Assembly: GCF_020215645.1 (NCBI RefSeq)
Contig: NZ_CP084058.1
Coordinates: forward strand, 7,316,001-7,380,000
DNA length: 64,000 bases
Direction: 5' to 3'
Source: Nonomuraea gerenzanensis
GTDB lineage: Bacteria > Actinomycetota > Actinomycetes > Streptosporangiales > Streptosporangiaceae
The notes beneath the pieces are model-generated. The model saw nothing but the letters and a program-made list of their open reading frames with translations. It was not told the DNA's origin and did not search any database. Of the stretch, positions 3,058 through 12,757 are shown piece by piece. How positions within the stretch are numbered: position 1 is the first letter of the stretch; every line of letters begins with the position of its first letter. The position numbers and the translations under genes are program-made.

Positions 3058-4308
3058 CTACCAGGTGCGCGGGAGCGGGAAGCGGGCGCGTACCGCGAAA
3101 CCGCCGTCCGGCTCGGGCCCGGTGTGCAGGCTGCCCTCCACCATCGCCAGCCGCTCCCGCATGCCGACCAGCCCGTGCCCGGACCGCCCGCCGGTCGTCC
3201 TGGCGGTGCCCTCCCTCGTGCCCTCCCTCGTGCCCGCGCCGGCGGGCACCGGCGCGGGGCCGTTGCGCACCTCCAGGGTGAGCGCCTGCTCGTCGTAGCC
3301 GATGGCGACCGCCGTCGGGGCGGCGTGGGCGTGCCGCAGCACGTTCGTCAGCGCCTCCTGCAGCACCCGGTACGCGGTGACGTCCAGCACGGGCGGCAGC
3401 CGGGGCAGGTCGGCGGGGGCGTCCAGCGTCACGGCGAGGCCGGCCGCGCGCACGTCGGCGATCAGCTCGTCCAGCCGCACCAGTGACGGCATCGGCGCCA
3501 CCTGCCCGCGGTCGGCGCGCTCGCGCAGCAGGCCGACCAGGCCGCGCATCTCCTCCACGGTCTGCCGGCCCAGTCGTTCCAGGCCGGCCACGACCTCCTG
3601 CTCCGCCGGCCGGTCGCCGAGCAGCCTGCGCAGCGCGCCCAGTTGCAGGGTCATCACGCTGACCGAGTGCGCGACCGCGTCGTGCACCTCCCTGGCGATG
3701 CGCGTGCGCTCCTGCGCCACCGCCGCCAGCGCGCTGGCCTCCCGCTCGGCGTCGAGCGCCGCCGCCAGCTCGGCCGACTGCGCCGCCAGCTCGGCGGAGC
3801 GGGCCGCCAGCTCAGCGAAGTGCGCCGCCAGCTCGGCGTGCCGCGCCGCCCGCTCGCCGCCGCGCCGCGCGAGCAGGCCCATGGACCAGCACGGCAGCAG
3901 GAGCGCCGGGACGAACAGCAGCTCCCACACCGACGCCGCGGACAGCGCCGTGGCGGCGAACGACGCGACGGCCAGGACCAGCGTCACGGCGGAGCGGCGG
4001 GCCGGCTCGCGCCAGCCCGTCCAGAAGACCGCGCCGAGCACGCCGATCAGGGCCGCGCCCGAGACGCCCGGCGCGCCGAAGACGACCATGCCCACGGGCA
4101 GGCAGAGCGCCGCGATCAGCGTGCCGGGCAGCGGGTGCCACGCCGCGAGCACCAGACCGGCGCCCATCACCACCCCCGACACCCAGGTGGCGGTGGCGGC
4201 GGCGCCGAAGAAGTCGTCGAGCCGCGTCTCGGCCACGGCCAGCACGGCCACCAGAAGTCCGAACACCACGGGAATGAGGCGTACGTCCCTCAGCCGCGTC
4301 CACGTCAT
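3058..4308 (-). CDS. NarL-type sensor histidine kinase (HisKA_3), orphan
   Basis: A 416-residue membrane kinase. Four to five hydrophobic segments fill residues 10-145. A linker of Ala-Glu-Leu-Ala-Ala heptads follows (about 156-185). The dimerisation H-box is RTRIAREVHDAVAHS with His209 as phosphoacceptor, and the C-terminal GHKL ATPase has a TNVLRHAHA N-box and a GHGLVGMRERL G-box. Such kinases normally phosphorylate a LuxR/NarL-type response regulator encoded next door, but none lies on either side: corA converges on the left and a proline-rich membrane protein is on the right. The start is ATG 4308 with GGGGG four bases upstream. The frame stays open far upstream only because of GC bias. 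Confidence 0.85.
   Translation of the reverse strand: MTWTRLRDVRLIPVVFGLLVAVLAVAETRLDDFFGAAATATWVSGVVMGAGLVLAAWHPLPGTLIAALCLPVGMVVFGAPGVSGAALIGVLGAVFWTGWREPARRSAVTLVLAVASFAATALSAASVWELLFVPALLLPCWSMGLLARRGGERAARHAELAAHFAELAARSAELAAQSAELAAALDAEREASALAAVAQERTRIAREVHDAVAHSVSVMTLQLGALRRLLGDRPAEQEVVAGLERLGRQTVEEMRGLVGLLRERADRGQVAPMPSLVRLDELIADVRAAGLAVTLDAPADLPRLPPVLDVTAYRVLQEALTNVLRHAHAAPTAVAIGYDEQALTLEVRNGPAPVPAGAGTREGTREGTARTTGGRSGHGLVGMRERLAMVEGSLHTGPEPDGGFAVRARFPLPRTW
3761..3844 (-). repeat. four 21-bp tandem repeats in the histidine kinase linker
   Basis: Units begin at 3761, 3782, 3803 and 3824, each opening with GCCGCCAGCTC on the plus strand. They encode heptads of the form (x)xAELAA in the signalling helix that joins the membrane sensor to the H-box. 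One 21-bp unit equals one heptad (two helical turns), so copy-number change would lengthen the coiled coil without shifting its phase. Confidence 0.85.
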
Positions 4309-4460
4309 GGCCCCCGATCGTAAAGGCGGCCCCCACCTGTGCGACTCCGCCCAACGGGGGATCCTGACAGGCCATCGTCTCCCCCTGACAGCGGACCCGG
4401 CCGGTTCCCGCTCGGCCGGAGCGCGGCCCCGTCCCGGACAGGGCGGGCGTGAGCCCGCGT

Positions 4461-5426
4461 TCAGCTCGTGATGGTGACGTCCCGCAGCAGGAAGTAGCTC
4501 ATGGCGTCGGCCTGAAGGTACAGGTGGAACTTCTCCGCCCGGGGCCGGGCCGTCCTGTCTGCCGTGACGATGGTGGCGATCACGTACTTCTTGGCGACGT
4601 TGGCGCGGATCTGGCCGTACGCGAAGGTGTCCAGGGTCATGTCGCTGCGGATGTTCACGGCGTCCGAGTCGAGCTTGGCCAGCCGTGTGGCGGCGGCCTT
4701 GGCCGCCTTGTCCGTCGGGAACGCCATCGTCACCTGCACCGCCCGCAGGTGGCCCCGGTACGCCGAGTAGGCGACCTGGATGGCGCGCTCGCAGTTGTTC
4801 CTGGCCAGCACGCCCTGGCCGTCCACCGGGTCGCAGGTGTCGTAGGACCAGCCGCCGACCTTGTTCGCCGAGAACTTGACGTCCTCGAAGCGGAAGCGCC
4901 AGTCGTCGAACTCGTCGTGGGTGATCGGCGAGCCGGGCGCGGCCTGCGAGGTGCCGGGGGTGGTGCCGGCGGGCTCGTCGGCGGGGCTCGTGGGCTCCTG
5001 CGACGGGGCGGGCTCCTGCGACCGGGTGGGCTCTGCGAGGGTCCTGGTGGGGTCGGTGTCGGACAGGCTGGTGGCGGGCTGGGCGCGGGAGGCGCTGAAG
5101 TAGGCGACCGCGCCGGCCGTGCCGCCCAGGAGGAGCATGACCCCGAGCGCGGCGGACAGGCCGATGATCAGGGTGTTGTGGCGTCTGGGTGGCAGGCCGC
5201 CGAACTCGTAGGGGTGGTTGGCGTAGGTGGTGGTCTGCAGGTTCGGCGGGGGTGCGGGGCCTGCCTCCTGGTGGTGGTACGGGCCGGGCCCGTAGTCGGG
5301 GCGGTGGCCGTGATCGGGGGGTGGGCCGCCCTGGCGGGGCTGGGGGCCGTGCCCGGGGTGGCCGTATCCCTGCGGTGCCTGCTGGCCCCACGGATCATCG
5401 GGCTGGGGCTGGGAAGGGTAGGTCAT
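4461..5426 (-). CDS. proline/histidine-rich single-pass membrane protein with extracytoplasmic domain
   Basis: 321 residues. Residues 1-80 are rich in Pro, Gln, Gly, His and Tyr, typical of cytoplasmic tails of actinobacterial cell-envelope proteins. One membrane helix spans about 85-110. A Ser/Pro/Glu/Thr linker (about 115-165) leads to an extracytoplasmic domain of about 155 residues containing two cysteines (TCDP and NNCERA) that may form a disulfide. No known enzymatic motif is seen. It is transcribed in the same direction as the kinase downstream, 150 bp away, so it could be a partner or substrate, but nothing in the sequence proves this. Function unknown. Confidence 0.75.
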   Translation of the reverse strand: MTYPSQPQPDDPWGQQAPQGYGHPGHGPQPRQGGPPPDHGHRPDYGPGPYHHQEAGPAPPPNLQTTTYANHPYEFGGLPPRRHNTLIIGLSAALGVMLLLGGTAGAVAYFSASRAQPATSLSDTDPTRTLAEPTRSQEPAPSQEPTSPADEPAGTTPGTSQAAPGSPITHDEFDDWRFRFEDVKFSANKVGGWSYDTCDPVDGQGVLARNNCERAIQVAYSAYRGHLRAVQVTMAFPTDKAAKAAATRLAKLDSDAVNIRSDMTLDTFAYGQIRANVAKKYVIATIVTADRTARPRAEKFHLYLQADAMSYFLLRDVTITS

Positions 5427-5601: not shown

Positions 5602-7350
5602 CTACTGGACGCGGTTCAGCAGGACGGGGTCGTGGCCGAACGCGTGCAGCAGGAGATGCGCCATCGTGAACCGGCCCGACGGCGTCGGCAGGTCCGGCCG
5701 CCATTCGGGCCTGCGGACGATCGAGTACCGGCTGCCCTCCATGCAGCGGTGCATGACCTCGGCGACGATCCGGCCGCCGACGCCGGTCAGCACCCCGTTG
5801 TTCAGCTCCGCCTCGCGCAGGATGTAGAGCCAGAGCGGCGTGTGCTCCGTGACGGGGTGGGCGTCGCCGAGGTGGCTGAGGTTCGCGGCGGTCTTGTCGC
5901 CCACGAGGATCTGGTTGGCGTTCAGCTTCGGCAGTTGCATGAGCTCCGCCGCCTGCTGCCCGCTGGCGAGCTGGATCATGTCCGCTCTGACCAGGTTGCG
6001 GAAGGCCAGGTTGCGCTGCAGGTCGTCCGGGATGCCGGGGGCGAGCCGGCCGCCGAAGGAGCCGGGCGGGAGCTGGCCGAGGAAGCTGCCCACCAGCGTG
6101 TCGATGCGCTTGGCGCGGTTGACGTCGCCCGGCGGCAGGCCGAGCCCGGCGCCCGCGTCGCCGTCCCCCATCAGGTCGAACAGCCGCCGCCAGTCCGGGA
6201 TCCAGTTGGACGGCAGGCGGTTGTCGGCGTTCAGCACGCCGGAGGTCCCGGAGAACCTGAAGAGCAGGGCCAGGGTCGCCGGGATCTGCTGCGAGTTGAA
6301 GACGCGGTTCCACTCGTAGGAGTCGCGGACCATGCTGTGCCCGAGCCGGAACGCCGCGATCGAGAACTCGATCGGCATCGTGGGCAGTTGCCCGGGCACC
6401 ACGGTGGCGTACCGGTCGCCGTTCTGGCCGCCGTTGCCGTAGGAGTCGCGGTACGGGTCCACCGGCACCTCGAAGAACCGGCGGCCGTGAGTGAAGACGT
6501 CCTCGACGATGGTGCGATCCACGATCCTGGGCAGGAAGTCGTGGCGCAGCACCCACTGGTAGTGCAGCACGACTCTCTCGCGTGCCTTCTCGAACAGCAG
6601 GGCGCTGGGCACGCCGTTCGCGGCGAGCTGGTCCACGATCCGGTTGTGGAAGTGGATGAACGCCAGGTGGATCTGCGCCACCGCGAGGTTCTCGTCGTTG
6701 CGCGGGTCCGGGATCAGCGGCCGGCCGGTCCCCTGCTCCCGCGCCAGGTCGAACCCATCGAAGTCGGGCAGGTCACCCACCGCGGCGGTGGAGCCGGTGC
6801 GCAGGCGCATGCTGCCGGGCTCGAAGAACGCGGCGCTGTCGGGGTGGCCGGGCCCGAAGCCGTAGAGGGCGTCCAGGTCGAGGGCCGGTGAACGGCCCTG
6901 GATGAGCTGGTCGAGGGTGACCCGCTCCCCCAGCGTGGCGTCCGTCTTGTCCATGGTGAGGTCGTGGTCGACGAACTGCCCGAGGTAGGTGTAGCCGGCG
7001 GGGATCGTGGAGTCCGGCTGGTCGGTCTCGCTCGCCGGCACCATGGCCTCGGCGATCTGCCGGGACAGCGTCGTGTCCACGGTGCCGCCGATCGCGAGGG
7101 GCGCCTGCCTGGGCACGAGCCGGGAGAAGCGGAAGTGCCGCAGCTCCTCCCAGGTCGAGGGCCGCCGGCAGCCGGCGCCCTGCTCGGGGTGGTAGAGGCC
7201 CTCGTCGGTGATGTAGTACTCACTGCGCTGGTGGCGGTTCATGGACGGTCGGCTCCTTTCCGACGGGCGAGGCTGGGGCGCCGCGCCCGCCGGCACCACC
7301 GCGAGACGGATCTCCTGGCCGGGCAGGGGCTGCGTGTCGTCGGCGCTCAT
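5602..7350 (-). CDS. animal-type (cyclooxygenase-like) haem peroxidase
   Basis: 582 residues matching the animal haem peroxidase family found in actinobacteria. GQFVDHD carries the distal haem histidine (about His129), PLIPDPRNDEN the conserved catalytic arginine region (about 219), and FRLGHSMVRDSY the proximal histidine (about 338). There is no signal peptide, so it is probably cytoplasmic. Such enzymes oxidise halides, phenols or fatty acids with peroxide; the substrate here is unknown. The start is uncertain. ATG 7350 has AGAGG upstream, but an internal ATG at 7242 follows a better AAAGGAG with 10-base spacing, and the first 36 residues are low complexity. The neighbouring TPR-CHAT gene points the same way 74 bp upstream, but a hairpin separates them. 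Confidence 0.85.
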   Translation of the reverse strand: MSADDTQPLPGQEIRLAVVPAGAAPQPRPSERSRPSMNRHQRSEYYITDEGLYHPEQGAGCRRPSTWEELRHFRFSRLVPRQAPLAIGGTVDTTLSRQIAEAMVPASETDQPDSTIPAGYTYLGQFVDHDLTMDKTDATLGERVTLDQLIQGRSPALDLDALYGFGPGHPDSAAFFEPGSMRLRTGSTAAVGDLPDFDGFDLAREQGTGRPLIPDPRNDENLAVAQIHLAFIHFHNRIVDQLAANGVPSALLFEKARERVVLHYQWVLRHDFLPRIVDRTIVEDVFTHGRRFFEVPVDPYRDSYGNGGQNGDRYATVVPGQLPTMPIEFSIAAFRLGHSMVRDSYEWNRVFNSQQIPATLALLFRFSGTSGVLNADNRLPSNWIPDWRRLFDLMGDGDAGAGLGLPPGDVNRAKRIDTLVGSFLGQLPPGSFGGRLAPGIPDDLQRNLAFRNLVRADMIQLASGQQAAELMQLPKLNANQILVGDKTAANLSHLGDAHPVTEHTPLWLYILREAELNNGVLTGVGGRIVAEVMHRCMEGSRYSIVRRPEWRPDLPTPSGRFTMAHLLLHAFGHDPVLLNRVQ

Positions 7351-7404
7351 GCCGCACCTCTGGGGGTTCCGGGGATCTCTCTAACCCGCACCAGAGGGAC
7401 CGGG

Positions 7405-7435
7405 TGCCGCCTTGATACCGATGATCAAGCGGGCA
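7405..7435. terminator. hairpin at the end of the TPR-CHAT gene
   Basis: CTTGAT (7411-7416) and ATCAAG (7424-7429) pair around a 7-base loop. Flanking TGCC(G/C)C and G(C/G)GGCA extend the stem to about 11 of 12 pairs. The structure overlaps the CHAT stop codon (7425-7427) and lies in the promoter-proximal DNA of the peroxidase gene, so it may be a terminator or an operator. Confidence 0.4.
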
Positions 7436-10235
7436 CGGTGGAGTCCGCCCCCATGCAGACGAATCCGGCCGCCACCGCGTACGCGGCCAGGTCCTCCCCC
7501 GCCACCTGCTGCTGCGCCTGCGCGAGCGCGGCGGCGGTGGAGTGGCCCGCGGCGAGCAGCTTGTGCAGGGCGATCATGAGCGTGGTGCTCTCCACGTCCA
7601 GGATGGACAGGACGGGGGCCACGATCGTGCGGGTGCCCAGGGCCAGGAACGTGGCGCTGAGGCCGAGCAGCTCATCCCCTGGGCGGACCACGAACCGGCC
7701 GCTGTCGCAGGCCGCCAGGATCACGATCCCGGGCGGGTGGCGGAGGCTTTCCAGGTCGTAGACGGTCAGCGGGCCGTCGGCCAGGCGGAGGGAGGAGAAC
7801 AGGGGGTTGGTGGGGTGGATGTGGCCGTGCGCGGCGATGTGCGCGAGCCCGGCGCCGTCCAGGGCTGCCAGCACCGCCTCCGTCCCTGCGGCGGCGTCGA
7901 CCAGGGCGGGCACGGCGTGGATCGAGGCGACCCCCTCGGCCTCCGCCCGCGCGCCCGGCAGCCCCGGCCCGGCCGCCGCCAGCACGCGCCCCGTCCCCGG
8001 CACACCTGCCGCACCCAGAGCGCCTCCCGCCGCCGCCCCCGGCGCGCCTCCCGCTGATGGCACATCTGCCGCCTCCCGCGCTCCTCCCGCTGCCGGAACG
8101 CCTTGCGCCCCCAGTGCCCGCCCAGCCCTCCCCGCAGCGCCACGTGCCTGTTCGCCATCGGACCGGGAGGTGACGCCCGCCTGGTTCCCGGTGTGCCAGA
8201 GGGTCGCCGACGGTGACAGGCAGACGGGGCGGCCCGCGCACGACGGCAGCACCGACCACGGCAACGCCTGGACGGGCCCGCTGGGCACCAGCACCAGCGG
8301 GCGATCCCCCAGGTCACCGGCCAGCGGCCGCATCAGCAGCGCGTCGAGCCGGTCGGCGGTCCTCCGCAGCAGCAGCTCGGCGGCGTCCTGGCTGCCGGGC
8401 AGCGACTGCCGCCTGGCCATCCGCCGCAACGCGAACGGCACCCGCTCGACCAGCGACCGGATCGGCCCCACCGGCCCCAGCTCCCGCAGCCGCACCCGCC
8501 CGTCCACGACGGTGATGGCGTACATCAGCTCGTCCACGTGCACGAACTCCACCAGCGCCCGCTCCCCGAGCGCCCGCCCCAACTCGCGCGGCGGCACCGG
8601 AGCGGCCAGCGCGCCACCTTCGGCGTGGTGCCGGCAGTAGTCGCGGATCTCCCGCTCCAGCGCGACCTGCCGCTCCGTCAGGACGGCGGCGTCCTCCCCC
8701 GCCGCGCGCCGCAGCCCGATCTCGGCGACCACGACGCGCAGCCGGGCCAGCGCACCGGCCAGCCGCGGGTCGTTGGGCGGCCTGGCGGGCTTCATCAGCA
8801 GGTGCCTGGCCCGCCCCTGCTCCGCCCAGGCCAGCACCTCCTCCGGCCGGCCGTCCTCCAGCGCCATCCGCAGGCCCAGCTCGGCCGCCCCGACCCGGAT
8901 CCCGGACGCGTGCGCGCGCAGGTCGGTGGCGCCGAGGGTGGCGCGGTGCTCGTCGTGCACGCGCAACGCGGTGCGCAGCGCGATCTTGGCGCCGCGCCGG
9001 TTGCCGCGCGCCAGCCGTACCAGTGCCTCGGCGTGCCAGGCGTGCACGCGCTGGATGGCGGGCCCCCGCAGCCGCCTGCGTGCGGCGAGTTCGAGCTGCC
9101 GCTGGGCGCGGGCGGTCCAGCCGCGCGCCAGCGCCAGCCCGGCGGCCAGCATGCGCGCCTCCACCTCGGTGGACAGCCAGCGGGCCGCGGCCAGCTCGGC
9201 CGCGCACCGCTCCACCCGCCCGACACTCACCCCGGCGCCGGCCGCCGCCGCCGACCTGGCGGCCACGAACCTGGCCAGCACCGCCCATTCCGGCCGGCGC
9301 TGCCGGCCGAAGCCCAGTGCCGCGCGACGGGCCTCGCGCACGGCCCGCTCGTGGTCGCCTTCCAGGTACGCCGTCCGCGCGAGCAGCAGCCTGGCCTCGG
9401 GCACCCCCACGGTGCGCTTGCGGCGCCCGAACTCCGCCAGGGTCTCCTCGGCCGCCTCCCCCGCCTCGGCGATGAGCCCGGCCGACAGCAGCAGCTCGGT
9501 CCTGTCGGCCAGCGTCCAGCAGAGCTGATGCGTGTCGAGCTGCCTGAAGCGTTCCTCGGCGAGGTCGAGGTAGCGCAGCGCGGCGGGCACGTCACCGCGG
9601 TGAGCGCAGATCCAGCCGAGGTTCTGCCACACGATGGCCAGCGACAGGTCCAGGCCGAGCCGCCGGCACAGCCGCTCCGCCTCGTGCAGGTCGTGCTCGG
9701 CCAGGGCGAACTCGTTGCGGAAGCCGTGCACGATGCCGCGGTTCGACAACACCCGCTGCAGCCACAGGTGATCGCCGGCCTGTTGCAGCGCGGGCACCGC
9801 GACCCGATAGCCGGCCAGCGCCTCGTCCGGCCTGCGCAGGTGGTTGAACATCACGGCCCGCTGCGCCTCGGCCCGCGCCCTGCCCACGCCGCGCAGGTCC
9901 GGCAGTGCCCGGTCCACCTCGCTGAGCGCCTGCTCCATGCGCCCCTGGACGCACCAGACGAAGGCCAGGCGCAGCCGCGCCTCGGCGGCCAGCTCCGGCG
10001 ACCCGGCCCGCTGGGCGAGCCGGATGGAGTCACGCAGGTGCCGGGCTGCCACGTGCAGGTCCGTCACGTGCAGCGACGCGATGCCGAGGGCGCGCGCCGC
10101 CACCGAGGCGAGCCTGAGGTCGCCTTCTTCCCTGGCGCGCCGCGCCACGTCCGCGGCCTCGGTCATCAGGCGGGCGGGGTCGGACTCGGCGAGCCGCAGC
10201 AGCTCCGCACCCGGATCGGAAGGGCTCAGACTCAC
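7425..10235 (-). CDS. TPR-CHAT domain protein (caspase-like cysteine protease)
   Basis: 936 residues. The first half (about 30-480) is a run of degenerate 34-40-residue helical pairs rich in Ala, Leu and Arg, read as TPR repeats. The second half is a CHAT domain: HIAAHGH supplies the catalytic histidine (about 803) and LAACDSGR the catalytic cysteine (about 843), both intact. CHAT proteins belong to the caspase-separase clan and usually act after sensing through TPR or NTPase modules. An Ala/Gly-rich insertion of roughly 75 residues (about 690-765) interrupts the domain before the catalytic histidine. The gene starts at GTG 10235, seven bases after a CAAACT -10 box, implying a leaderless mRNA. 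It diverges from a subtilase-sigma-small-protein operon, and the four genes probably form one pathway. Confidence 0.85.
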   Translation of the reverse strand: MSLSPSDPGAELLRLAESDPARLMTEAADVARRAREEGDLRLASVAARALGIASLHVTDLHVAARHLRDSIRLAQRAGSPELAAEARLRLAFVWCVQGRMEQALSEVDRALPDLRGVGRARAEAQRAVMFNHLRRPDEALAGYRVAVPALQQAGDHLWLQRVLSNRGIVHGFRNEFALAEHDLHEAERLCRRLGLDLSLAIVWQNLGWICAHRGDVPAALRYLDLAEERFRQLDTHQLCWTLADRTELLLSAGLIAEAGEAAEETLAEFGRRKRTVGVPEARLLLARTAYLEGDHERAVREARRAALGFGRQRRPEWAVLARFVAARSAAAAGAGVSVGRVERCAAELAAARWLSTEVEARMLAAGLALARGWTARAQRQLELAARRRLRGPAIQRVHAWHAEALVRLARGNRRGAKIALRTALRVHDEHRATLGATDLRAHASGIRVGAAELGLRMALEDGRPEEVLAWAEQGRARHLLMKPARPPNDPRLAGALARLRVVVAEIGLRRAAGEDAAVLTERQVALEREIRDYCRHHAEGGALAAPVPPRELGRALGERALVEFVHVDELMYAITVVDGRVRLRELGPVGPIRSLVERVPFALRRMARRQSLPGSQDAAELLLRRTADRLDALLMRPLAGDLGDRPLVLVPSGPVQALPWSVLPSCAGRPVCLSPSATLWHTGNQAGVTSRSDGEQARGAAGRAGRALGAQGVPAAGGAREAADVPSAGGAPGAAAGGALGAAGVPGTGRVLAAAGPGLPGARAEAEGVASIHAVPALVDAAAGTEAVLAALDGAGLAHIAAHGHIHPTNPLFSSLRLADGPLTVYDLESLRHPPGIVILAACDSGRFVVRPGDELLGLSATFLALGTRTIVAPVLSILDVESTTLMIALHKLLAAGHSTAAALAQAQQQVAGEDLAAYAVAAGFVCMGADSTVPA

Positions 10236-10242
10236 TCACGGG

Positions 10243-10248
10243 AGTTTG
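10243..10248 (-). promoter_or_regulatory. -10 box (CAAACT) for leaderless TPR-CHAT transcript
   Basis: Read on the minus strand, CAAACT is followed by exactly seven bases and then the GTG start at 10235, the same geometry seen ahead of corA, the TetR gene and cobG. There is no ribosome site in front of this GTG, consistent with leaderless translation. Confidence 0.4.
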
Positions 10249-10342
10249 CCGTGAAAACGGCGGGATGTGATGTATCAGAGCGGCGACAACTGCTCTCTGT
10301 TTTTCGGCGCGCGCTTTCACCGCATCCCCCAAGGAGACAGCG

Positions 10343-11677
10343 ATGGCCGACTACAACAACGTGGTCAGGCGCCGAATCGAGGCGTTCCGCAGCGACGAGA
10401 TCGTGCTCGACCCCAAGGACCTGCGACAGGTCAGCCAGGAGGCCGGTGCGCTCGGCATCGAGGTGGCGCCCATCGCCACCAGCGTGCGGCTCGGGCTGGC
10501 CCAGTACAAGCTCCGGAGGCTGGAGGCGGGCGTCGCGGCACTCGGCCCCGACCTCGTCAACCGGGTGAAGGCGGCGGCCGTGGGCACCTACCTGGAGGGC
10601 GAGCAGCCCTCCGACCTCGACCTGCTGCTGTTCCACCTCCGCGAGAAGTCAGCAGCCAAATACGCCGGATACAAGCCGGTGGTGGCCAAGATCCGGACCT
10701 ACGAGAACATCGAGGGCTCCCCGTACAGCGGGGGCAGCGTCGGCGACCCCCAGCCCGTCAAGGCGTTCAAGTTGCCCGAGCGGTCGCCGTCGAAGCGCCG
10801 GCGGCCCCGCATCGGCATTCTCGACACGCCGATCCATCCGCATCCGCAGTTCGCCGGGCGGTATCTGATCGCCTCCGACAAGGGGCTGCTCGTCGAGCGG
10901 CCGAAGCAGGTCTCCTTCAGCGGGCACGCCATCTTCGTCGCCTCGGTGGCGGCGCGGCAGGCGCCGGACGCGGAGTTCGTCATCTATCCCGTGCTCGACG
11001 AGACCACCCTGACCACGAACTCCTGGGACCTGGCCACCACGATGGTCGACGCGCTGGACGACGACCTGGACATGATGATCATAGCTCTGGGCGGCGCCAC
11101 GGCCGACGGGCGGGAGCCGCTCGCTCTGGCCCGCGCCTGCGAGCGCACGAGCGGCATCGTCAAGGTCGCCGCCCTGGGCAACAACGGCCAGAACAAGGCC
11201 GCGGCGCCCAAGGGCACCCAGTTCTCCGAGCTGCCGGCGAACACGCCGATCTGGCCGGCCGCCAGCTCCACGGTGATCGCGGTCGGCGCCCGGGACGAGT
11301 CCGACAGGGCGGCGTACTTCTCGCCCACGCTGGAGGAGGCGCCCTGGACCGACTGCACCGCACCCGGCACGAACCTCGAAGGGCTCTTCCTGCCCGGCCA
11401 GGTCTGGATGGCCGACCTCGACGTGCGGAAGGGGGCGATCAAGGTGTCGGACCGGTGGGCCGACTTCCCGGCTCCGGGACATGCCACGTGGAGCGGCACC
11501 TCGTTCGCGGCCGCGTACGCGGGCGGTGCCATCGCCCAGCAGGCCTACGCCGAAGGAATCACCGTCCGGGAACTGGCGCAGACGCTGTTCGGGGAGGACC
11601 GTGAGAAGACCCCGACCACCTACGACGGCGCCCCGCGCACCGGCCTCGACGCCCTCGACATCGTGCGGTTCCCGTAG
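10343..11677 (+). CDS. cytoplasmic S8 (subtilisin-like) serine protease
   Basis: 444 residues with a complete S8 triad: Asp161 in GILDTP, His195 in SFSGHAIFVAS and Ser387 in WSGTSFAAAY. The oxyanion Asn is in ALGNNG (about 280). There is no signal peptide and no classical prodomain; residues 1-150 form a helical N-terminal region of unknown fold. The protein should therefore be cytosolic and activity-controlled rather than secreted. AAGGAG (10331-10336) precedes ATG 10343. It lies divergently 107 bp from the TPR-CHAT gene and just ahead of a sigma factor gene, which suggests a regulatory protease. Likely regulation is by its N-terminal region or by CHAT cleavage (inference). Confidence 0.88.
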   Translation: MADYNNVVRRRIEAFRSDEIVLDPKDLRQVSQEAGALGIEVAPIATSVRLGLAQYKLRRLEAGVAALGPDLVNRVKAAAVGTYLEGEQPSDLDLLLFHLREKSAAKYAGYKPVVAKIRTYENIEGSPYSGGSVGDPQPVKAFKLPERSPSKRRRPRIGILDTPIHPHPQFAGRYLIASDKGLLVERPKQVSFSGHAIFVASVAARQAPDAEFVIYPVLDETTLTTNSWDLATTMVDALDDDLDMMIIALGGATADGREPLALARACERTSGIVKVAALGNNGQNKAAAPKGTQFSELPANTPIWPAASSTVIAVGARDESDRAAYFSPTLEEAPWTDCTAPGTNLEGLFLPGQVWMADLDVRKGAIKVSDRWADFPAPGHATWSGTSFAAAYAGGAIAQQAYAEGITVRELAQTLFGEDREKTPTTYDGAPRTGLDALDIVRFP

Positions 11678-11706
11678 TGACGGCACAGGCGCCCGAAGGA
11701 CGGACC

Positions 11707-12303
11707 ATGCCGGAGAGCTTCGAGGTCGAAGCCCTGGTCATCCGCGCCCGCGCGGGTGACCAGGCGGCGTGGGACCGGCTCGTCGAGCGGTACGCCCCCA
11801 TGCTCTGGTCGATCTGCAGATCGTACGGCCTGGACCGCCGGGACATCGACGACGTCGCCCAGTTCGTGTGGATGCGTGCCGTCGAGCACCTGTCCCGCCT
11901 CCGTGATCCGGAGCGGCTGGGCTCCTGGCTGGCCACCACGACGAAACGTGAATGCGTCCGGGTGCGCCGGGCGCGGCACAGGCAGGACGTCGCCGAGTCA
12001 CCGCTCGACGCCGCGACCGTCGCGGACGACCGGGGCGACGACGTCGCGCGGGCGCTGGAGGAGGCCGAGCTCAACGCCGTGCTCCGCGCCGCCTTCGCCG
12101 AGCTGTCGCCCGGCTGTCAGCGACTGTTGTCGCTCCTTCTGCGAGAGGTGCCCTACACCGAGATCGCCTCTCGGCTCGACATGGCCGTCGGCAGCATCGG
12201 CCCCACCCGATCGCGATGCCTGGCACGGCTGCGTACCAACGCGGCGCTGGCCGCCCTGATGCGGGCGGACCTGGAAGTGCGAGAGGGTGAACGCCATGTC
12301 TGA
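11707..12303 (+). CDS. ECF-like sigma-70 family RNA polymerase sigma factor
   Basis: 198 residues. Region 2 is recognisable (AWDRLVERYAPMLW, then DIDDVAQFVWMRAVEHL and GSWLATTTKRECVRVRR). Region 4 (LSPGCQRLLSLLLREVPYTEIASRL) has the helix-turn-helix with the LDMAVGSIGPTRSRCLARLR recognition helix. Regions 1 and 3 are absent, as in ECF sigmas. The frame is open back to a GTG at 11677 that overlaps the protease stop, but ATG 11707 has GAAGGA six bases upstream and is preferred. It is probably co-transcribed with the subtilase and overlaps the next gene by 8 bp, so it is likely held inactive by a product of this cluster (inference). Its promoter targets are unknown. Confidence 0.88.
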   Translation: MPESFEVEALVIRARAGDQAAWDRLVERYAPMLWSICRSYGLDRRDIDDVAQFVWMRAVEHLSRLRDPERLGSWLATTTKRECVRVRRARHRQDVAESPLDAATVADDRGDDVARALEEAELNAVLRAAFAELSPGCQRLLSLLLREVPYTEIASRLDMAVGSIGPTRSRCLARLRTNAALAALMRADLEVREGERHV

Positions 12304-12757
12304 GGCGTGGGACGATCATGAACTCCTGGAAAGGCTGCGCGCGGCCATGCTGGCCGCCGAAGCCGTCCCACGCGAGATCGTCGAGGCGGGCAAGTCGGCG
12401 TACGCGTGGCGCGACCTGGACCTCGACGTGGAGCTGGCCGAGCTGACCTACGACTCGGCCATGCACCTGGAGGAGCTGGCGGCGCTGCGCGCGGACTCCG
12501 CCGTCCTGCGTGCGCTCACGTTCGCCGCCACCCAGCTCACCATCGAGCTGGAGATCACCGACAGCTCCCTGCTCGGTCAGGTGGTGCCGCCGCAGGCGGG
12601 AGAGGTGCGGGTGCAGGACGGGTCGGGCGACGGCGGGCCGCAGGAGATCGACGACCTGGGGGTGTTCGTCATCCGCGGCAAGCCGCACGGCCCGTTCCGG
12701 CTGCACTGCCACACCCAGACGGGGCTGGACGTGTCGACGAGCTGGTTCACGCTGTAG
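12296..12757 (+). CDS. small acidic protein of unknown function, candidate sigma inhibitor
   Basis: 153 residues, leucine/glutamate-rich in the N-terminal half (helical, residues 1-85), with a beta-rich C-terminal half containing EVRVQDGSGD and PFRLHCHTQTGLDVST. No membrane segment, zinc-binding HxxxCxxC motif or enzyme motif is present, so it is not a classical ZAS anti-sigma. ATG 12296 has GAGAGG nine bases upstream and lies inside the end of the sigma gene; this translational coupling usually marks stoichiometric partners. A natural reading is a soluble inhibitor or tether of the sigma factor that the neighbouring proteases remove, but no direct sequence evidence supports binding. Confidence 0.6.
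   Translation: MSEAWDDHELLERLRAAMLAAEAVPREIVEAGKSAYAWRDLDLDVELAELTYDSAMHLEELAALRADSAVLRALTFAATQLTIELEITDSSLLGQVVPPQAGEVRVQDGSGDGGPQEIDDLGVFVIRGKPHGPFRLHCHTQTGLDVSTSWFTL

Follow-up and report, generated by a model that had tools for sequence, protein, structure and literature searches.

The question raised by the locus described here is whether four neighbouring genes, encoding a TPR-CHAT protease, an S8 subtilase, an extracytoplasmic function (ECF) sigma factor and a small acidic protein (SML), constitute a single signalling module in which proteolysis controls the sigma factor, and, if so, which of these proteins acts upon which. The locus is part of a stretch of 64,000 nucleotides (nt) from Nonomuraea gerenzanensis (contig NZ_CP084058.1, positions 7,316,001 to 7,380,000), the whole of which is referred to as the window; the genome is 12.07 Mb in size, and the nearest named relatives of SML are from Nonomuraea and [Actinomadura] parvosata. 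An earlier note on this DNA had proposed such a module, and based upon the results presented below the four genes very probably do form one functional unit, which is built as two halves, sigma factor plus SML and CHAT plus S8. In the window the CHAT gene diverges from the S8-sigma-SML genes across a gap of 107 base pairs (bp; 10236–10342), and the sigma and SML genes overlap by 8 bp. Both of these distances, as well as the intact CHAT H803/C843 and S8 D161/H195/S387 residues, had been read correctly before. The four genes are as follows.

7425–10235, minus strand: TPR-CHAT protease of 936 amino acids (aa), with Pfam matches to CHAT (8.9e-33) and TPR_12 (1.6e-8) and the residues H803/C843.
10343–11677, plus strand: S8 subtilase of 444 aa, a cytoplasmic proenzyme with a prodomain at about residues 1–120 and catalytic D161/H195/N280/S387.
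11707–12303, plus strand: ECF sigma factor of 198 aa, matching Sigma70_r2 (1.2e-13) and sigma70-ECF (7.7e-22).
12296–12757, plus strand, starting with ATG: SML, 153 aa, isoelectric point 4.4, with helices, a conserved low-confidence segment and a beta-sandwich.

The start of the sigma gene had previously been placed at a GTG codon at 11677; the ATG at 11707 is likelier, giving a protein of 198 aa, the same length as the database entry P0087.

The evidence that these genes belong together comes in part from the recurrence of their neighbourhood. A search of named genomes for SML gave 44 loci, of which 38 contained all four genes and 43 a match to the sigma factor; of the six loci without the full set, four are from Dactylosporangium, one is from an Acidimicrobiia metagenome-assembled genome and one from an actinobacterial metagenome-assembled genome, the last with no sigma gene beside SML. 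The order and orientation of the CHAT and S8 genes are variable, but wherever a locus holds both sigma and SML, the latter lies 3' of the sigma gene and on its strand. The N. gerenzanensis genome contains two further sets, both in the order S8-sigma-SML-CHAT on one strand, with small proteins whose matches to the SML profile are at about 1e-6 and 2e-4. In Actinomadura rubrisoli (L036, 3–10441), two four-gene sets that differ in gene order lie back to back. As the profiles used (A3–A6) were built partly from linked loci, the observed adjacency is partly so by construction, which does not apply to the absence of these genes elsewhere.

The co-occurrence of the genes was examined in 60 genomes sampled evenly from the class; these genomes are related, and Fisher values therefore overstate their independence. 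SML was detected in 23 of them, the CHAT type in 22, the sigma type in 22 and the S8 type in 23, with all four present in the same 22 genomes. For these counts S8 was accepted at an expectation value (E) of at most 1.2e-32, together with two weaker matches adjoining sigma (one in G056 and one in the N. gerenzanensis genome); at 1e-18 the S8 profile matched in 40 of the 60, most of these matches being general subtilases. In G045, the one SML genome outside the 22, the SML match is weak (2.5e-7) and lies some 1.7 kb away from an incomplete CHAT gene; the one S8 genome outside the 22 is G051. Since CHAT proteins in general are found in 33 of the 60 genomes, the co-occurrence is specific to this TPR-CHAT type. 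The presence of the set also varies inside families (f1, f9, f13, f18 and f26), and SML lies within 365 bp of the sigma gene in 28 of 29 places. The catalytic residues are likewise retained: H803 and C843 of CHAT are invariant in all 20 rows of alignment A4, and in the larger alignments (42 rows each) the CHAT His and Cys are kept in 37 of the 37 rows covering both, the S8 His and Ser in 42 of 42, and the S8 Asp in 40 of the 40 rows covering that position. The set thus recurs beyond chance, and the neighbourhood, the near-exact co-occurrence and the retention of catalytic residues in the covering rows together uphold the claim of the earlier note that the four genes make up one module.

The division of the set into two halves is seen where the halves come apart. 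In G067, whose genome is a single contig, sigma plus SML and CHAT plus S8 are 4.7 Mb apart, and in G027, G036 and G049 each half has a contig of its own (G023 and G059 have a contig end between the halves); both halves being present in the first four genomes, co-retention is possible without linkage. A CHAT-anchored view was obtained from 20 regions of eight hand-picked genomes, six of them without the full cluster at the SML locus; these regions were taken from the stronger CHAT places, with weaker or fragmentary ones left out, and two of them, L069 and L071, coincide with L044 and L046. S8 adjoins CHAT in 16 of the 20 regions and sigma plus SML in 7, one region has SML without sigma, and in 10 the CHAT plus S8 pair has no sigma plus SML nearby. 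Two regions (L073 and L082) contain sigma, SML and CHAT with no S8 in the fetched stretch, although S8 may be present elsewhere in the genome. In two Dactylosporangium loci that are not part of the 42-row alignments, L047 (8662–9426) and L050 (8665–9429), the S8-like gene beside sigma and SML lacks the catalytic triad; these genomes hold CHAT plus S8 pairs elsewhere (L070 and L075 in G003; L072 and L074 in G004).

The same division was observed when the pairwise distances obtained for each of the four were compared over the loci with exactly one of each gene (47 loci, 34 after removal of near-duplicates). Partial distance correlations were 0.77 for sigma-SML and 0.76 for S8-CHAT, followed by 0.29 for SML-CHAT, 0.16 for sigma-S8, 0.01 for sigma-CHAT and -0.15 for SML-S8. 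When 24 of the 34 loci were subsampled, the first three ranged from 0.69–0.83, 0.69–0.82 and 0.15–0.41, respectively, and in the distance trees sigma pairs with SML and S8 with CHAT. These results fit two tight pairs, and a bridge between them through SML is only suggestive; neighbouring genes are in any case co-inherited.

A further feature of these loci is a conserved two-part, promoter-like motif, GTATCA-N16/17-CTC(T/C)GT, which upon tallying of both strands reads toward sigma, S8 or SML. Its copy in the window is the following.

10272–10300, plus strand: promoter-like site GTATCA-N17-CTCTGT, 42 nt upstream of the S8 start codon and kept in L016, L017 and L018.

The exact motif precedes 19 of 58 sigma genes, 10 of 67 S8 genes and 3 of 60 SML genes, and none of 67 CHAT genes. 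Among 154 first genes the CTCTGT form gave 12 exact matches, in comparison to at most 1 for any of 40 scrambles; when one mismatch was allowed and sites of identical context were counted once (as also in the tally of both strands), 60 sites were present in the fetched loci versus 0–4 per scramble, and 35 of these 60 are followed, 25–60 nt downstream, by a plausible start that has a ribosome site, versus 1 of 16 for the scrambles. Loci L089–L096 were fetched partly for their motif matches, and their sites are for this reason not independent evidence. In the 60 genomes the other-strand form ACRGAG-N16/17-TGATAC had 17 matches versus 5 for a reversed control; the ACAGAG form accounted for 11, in six genomes that are all among the 22 with the full set, and the ACGGAG form for 6, of which five are outside these 22. 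The motif was at first read as a CHAT promoter (ACAGAG-N-TGATAC), a reading that was dropped as the both-strand tally fits the other strand, except at one L073 site. In our view the motif is likely to be the promoter of the sigma factor itself. As S8 can sit behind it and CHAT was in no case found there, S8 looks at least as much like a target or amplifier of the sigma factor as like a step leading from CHAT to sigma.

The S8 protein combines a subtilase domain having the catalytic Asp, His, Asn and Ser with an N-terminal prodomain, and it is a cytoplasmic proenzyme; the earlier claim that it has no signal peptide agrees with its N-terminus, which is not hydrophobic. Hydropathy indicates no membrane-like segments in any of the four proteins, all of which look cytoplasmic. 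The sigma factor scores 77.7 bits with the sigma70-ECF profile (cut-off 42.9), and its region 4 match is weak (0.0031), under the cut-off for that region. A search with PADLOC gave only weak partial matches, to BovA for CHAT (1.1e-4) and to a subtilase for S8 (1.2e-8). A CarboxypepD_reg match was obtained for 7 of 21 members of the SML family at E up to 1 (best 6.1e-6), the window copy being without it, and segment 34–65 of the predicted SML model is conserved and has a predicted local distance difference test (pLDDT) score below 50. No sigma-SML fusion stood out among the matches listed for the sigma factor (120 of 2064 relatives, with lengths up to 318 aa, not inspected singly).

Taken as a whole, the locus may be an ECF54-type module in which proteolysis is coupled to the sigma factor, and we advance the entire chain of events tentatively. 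SML would be a soluble inhibitor of the sigma factor, a step toward which we lean slightly. The gene for the TPR-CHAT protein does not lie behind the motif, and this protein would be a standing sensor that, on receiving a signal, cleaves SML or makes S8 do so; that CHAT acts on SML directly is plausible, although we rate it at somewhat below an even chance. The cut would probably fall in the conserved, flexible SML segment between the helices and the beta-sandwich. The sigma factor so freed would transcribe its own operon, including here the pro-subtilase as an amplifier or effector, and may also induce effector-like genes such as that for the adjacent haem peroxidase, which in a relative is paired with a patatin-like phospholipase gene. 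The adjacency of SML and sigma (28 of 29 places) and the pairing in the trees fit a release of sigma by CHAT through SML.

A number of observations weigh against this reading. The exact motif is missing upstream of 39 of the 58 sigma genes, and at one site (L073, 6021–6048) it is upstream of sigma but faces the opposite way to that in other loci. In the N. gerenzanensis genome it occurs exactly only once, at the window site, as does the reversed control, and the two other sets of this genome have no site within one mismatch. Among the 28 loci nearest to the window the SML-CHAT correlation falls to 0.18, level with that of sigma-S8, and in L042 SML has no adjoining sigma gene. The window SML has no Pfam match and no anti-sigma domain recognisable by sequence, although the fold may be there without a match; in Foldseek its best rows were Ig-, FN3- or expansin-like, none with E <0.001, and no known anti-sigma domain was among the rows shown.

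Of the alternatives, the one that survives best, which we nevertheless consider rather unlikely, is that proteolysis keeps the system off, with CHAT and/or S8 degrading the sigma factor until a signal stops them and SML serving as an adaptor or chaperone. This is in essence how a 2022 review (PMC8999054), in its passage on ECF54, interprets such loci, proposing proteolytic control without an anti-sigma factor, and it accords with the lack of a match between SML and any known anti-sigma domain. However, the closest pair by distance is sigma-SML, the correlations of sigma with its supposed proteases being only 0.01 (CHAT) and 0.16 (S8), and L047 and L050 retain sigma and SML although their S8-like neighbour has lost its triad and no CHAT is nearby.

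It is also conceivable, but in our estimation unlikely, that CHAT and S8 operate as a two-step cascade, in which CHAT matures the pro-subtilase and the latter destroys SML. The proenzyme nature of S8, its correlation with CHAT (0.76) and their proximity in 16 of 20 CHAT-anchored regions are as such a cascade would have them; L073 and L082, where sigma, SML and CHAT occur but S8 is missing from the fetched stretch (it may be elsewhere), and the SML-S8 correlation of -0.15 argue otherwise. Subtilases, moreover, commonly self-process. Lastly, it is very unlikely that the genes are related only as neighbours or regulon members, CHAT and S8 acting on other substrates (e.g., as paired proteases in stress or defence) and sigma answering another signal and merely inducing S8, for although CHAT plus S8 lack sigma plus SML nearby in 10 of 20 regions, and the motif precedes S8 genes outside the sigma operon (L025 and L068), so that S8 may be simply an output, CHAT is behind the motif in 0 of 67 cases, and therefore is not simply a co-regulated output, yet is kept exactly with this sigma type in the 60 genomes.

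Further genes may be targets of the sigma factor, and in the window one candidate is adjacent to the CHAT gene.

7391–7418, minus strand: second promoter-like site, GTATCA-N16-CTCTGG, with one mismatch, 40 nt before the peroxidase ATG and the same in L016, L017 and L018.
5602–7350, minus strand: haem-peroxidase open reading frame (ORF), a candidate sigma target (An_peroxidase, 4.5e-19), with relatives at the same place in L016–L018.

The site faces the peroxidase ORF; in L018 its counterpart lies before a patatin-DUF3376 gene, after which comes the peroxidase gene. The first approximately 22 residues of the window peroxidase ORF (7285–7350) match the start of the L018 patatin-DUF3376 protein, and the start of this ORF looks like the remnant of a lost patatin gene that has been fused on. 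In other loci, sites with at most one mismatch are found in L029 before a gene for a GH25 lysozyme, in L089 before a LuxR-type regulator and before an ORF that resembles a regulator but has no Pfam match, in L094 before an ORF with a GEVED domain, and in L090 before an acyl carrier protein (ACP) gene and before a gene resembling those for fatty-acyl-AMP ligases. Between the last two genes are two opposed sites (3824–3914), one exact and the other with a mismatch; the ACP gene is near a polyketide-synthase-like ORF and the ligase gene is followed by an MmpL-like ORF (both judged by eye), and a lipid or a polyketide may be among the outputs of the sigma factor here. With a looser pattern, the N. 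gerenzanensis genome has five sites versus 1 for the reversed control, against a composition estimate of about 6; two of the five are the window sites given above, and the other three, one before a HATPase-PAS-GAF gene, one before an AAA-ATPase gene and one with no gene clearly following it, are weak. Elsewhere in the window, a kinase-like ORF (3058–5391, minus strand; kinase by eye) contains a 21-nt tandem repeat in five overlapping register copies (3739–3874).

A broader extension of the proposal, which is speculative and in our judgement decidedly unlikely, is that a caspase-like cytoplasmic sensor would cut a new soluble anti-sigma factor, consisting of a helical arm and an Ig-like beta-sandwich, and thereby launch a sigma regulon comprising the pro-subtilase together with enzymes that damage the cell or defend it (haem peroxidase, and in relatives a patatin-like phospholipase and GH25 lysozyme). 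This would amount to a stand-alone bacterial pathway for immunity or cell death, of the kind tied to RNA sensing in CRISPR III-E.

With regard to known systems, the neighbourhood is not new. The ECF54 passage of the review cited above describes members with conserved carboxypeptidase, subtilase and CHAT neighbours (citing Huang 2015 and Casas-Pastor 2021), and the present locus is thus a further case of a known neighbourhood. An ECF sigma factor, a subtilase and CHAT (these two by Pfam), a carboxypeptidase-type protein (in the SML family, not in the window copy), an actinobacterial host and proposed proteolytic control are common to both, and no difference was seen between them; the ECF54 label is given here on the sigma type and the neighbourhood. 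According to the same passage, AntA (group ECF282) was then the sole case in which such proteolytic control had been proven by experiment. Among the papers listed in a literature search on ECF54, CHAT with sigma factor and related terms, there was no experiment on a system of this kind, and in the portions available of two papers on conflict systems (PMC7159879, 2020; PMC8195603, 2021) no CHAT-S8-sigma system was found. The promoter-like motif, the candidate outputs, the proenzyme and the split halves are new as far as the literature searches go. The locus offers testable handles, namely a promoter-like site open to assay, a few candidate targets, a proenzyme, and genomes in which the halves are unlinked; L073 and L082 are useful for asking if S8 is needed.

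Sigma/anti-sigma pairs of the RseA/DegS type resemble the module in that proteolysis would control an ECF sigma factor, but differ from it in that all four window proteins look cytoplasmic and no known anti-sigma domain was matched in SML. A published precedent is the Craspase of type III-E CRISPR (Csx29-Csx30-CASP-sigma), in which a TPR-CHAT protease occurs together with a sigma inhibitor; in the part of PMC10028731 that describes it, Csx29 cuts the sigma inhibitor Csx30, whereas for the window locus cleavage is only proposed. The window CHAT protein is not of the Csx29 family (25.2 bits versus a cut-off of 300), the window locus has a subtilase in addition, and SML has 153 aa in comparison to the 565 residues given there for Csx30. 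The earlier statement that no CRISPR is nearby holds for repeats, the direct repeats of window positions 1–30000 including no CRISPR-like array, and is not established for cas genes, which were not searched for by family (nor was Cas7-11). Csx29-Csx30 is a model for the proposed mechanism, by analogy, and not evidence for it, and the locus described here may in turn provide a CRISPR-free comparison for the Csx29-Csx30-sigma pathway.

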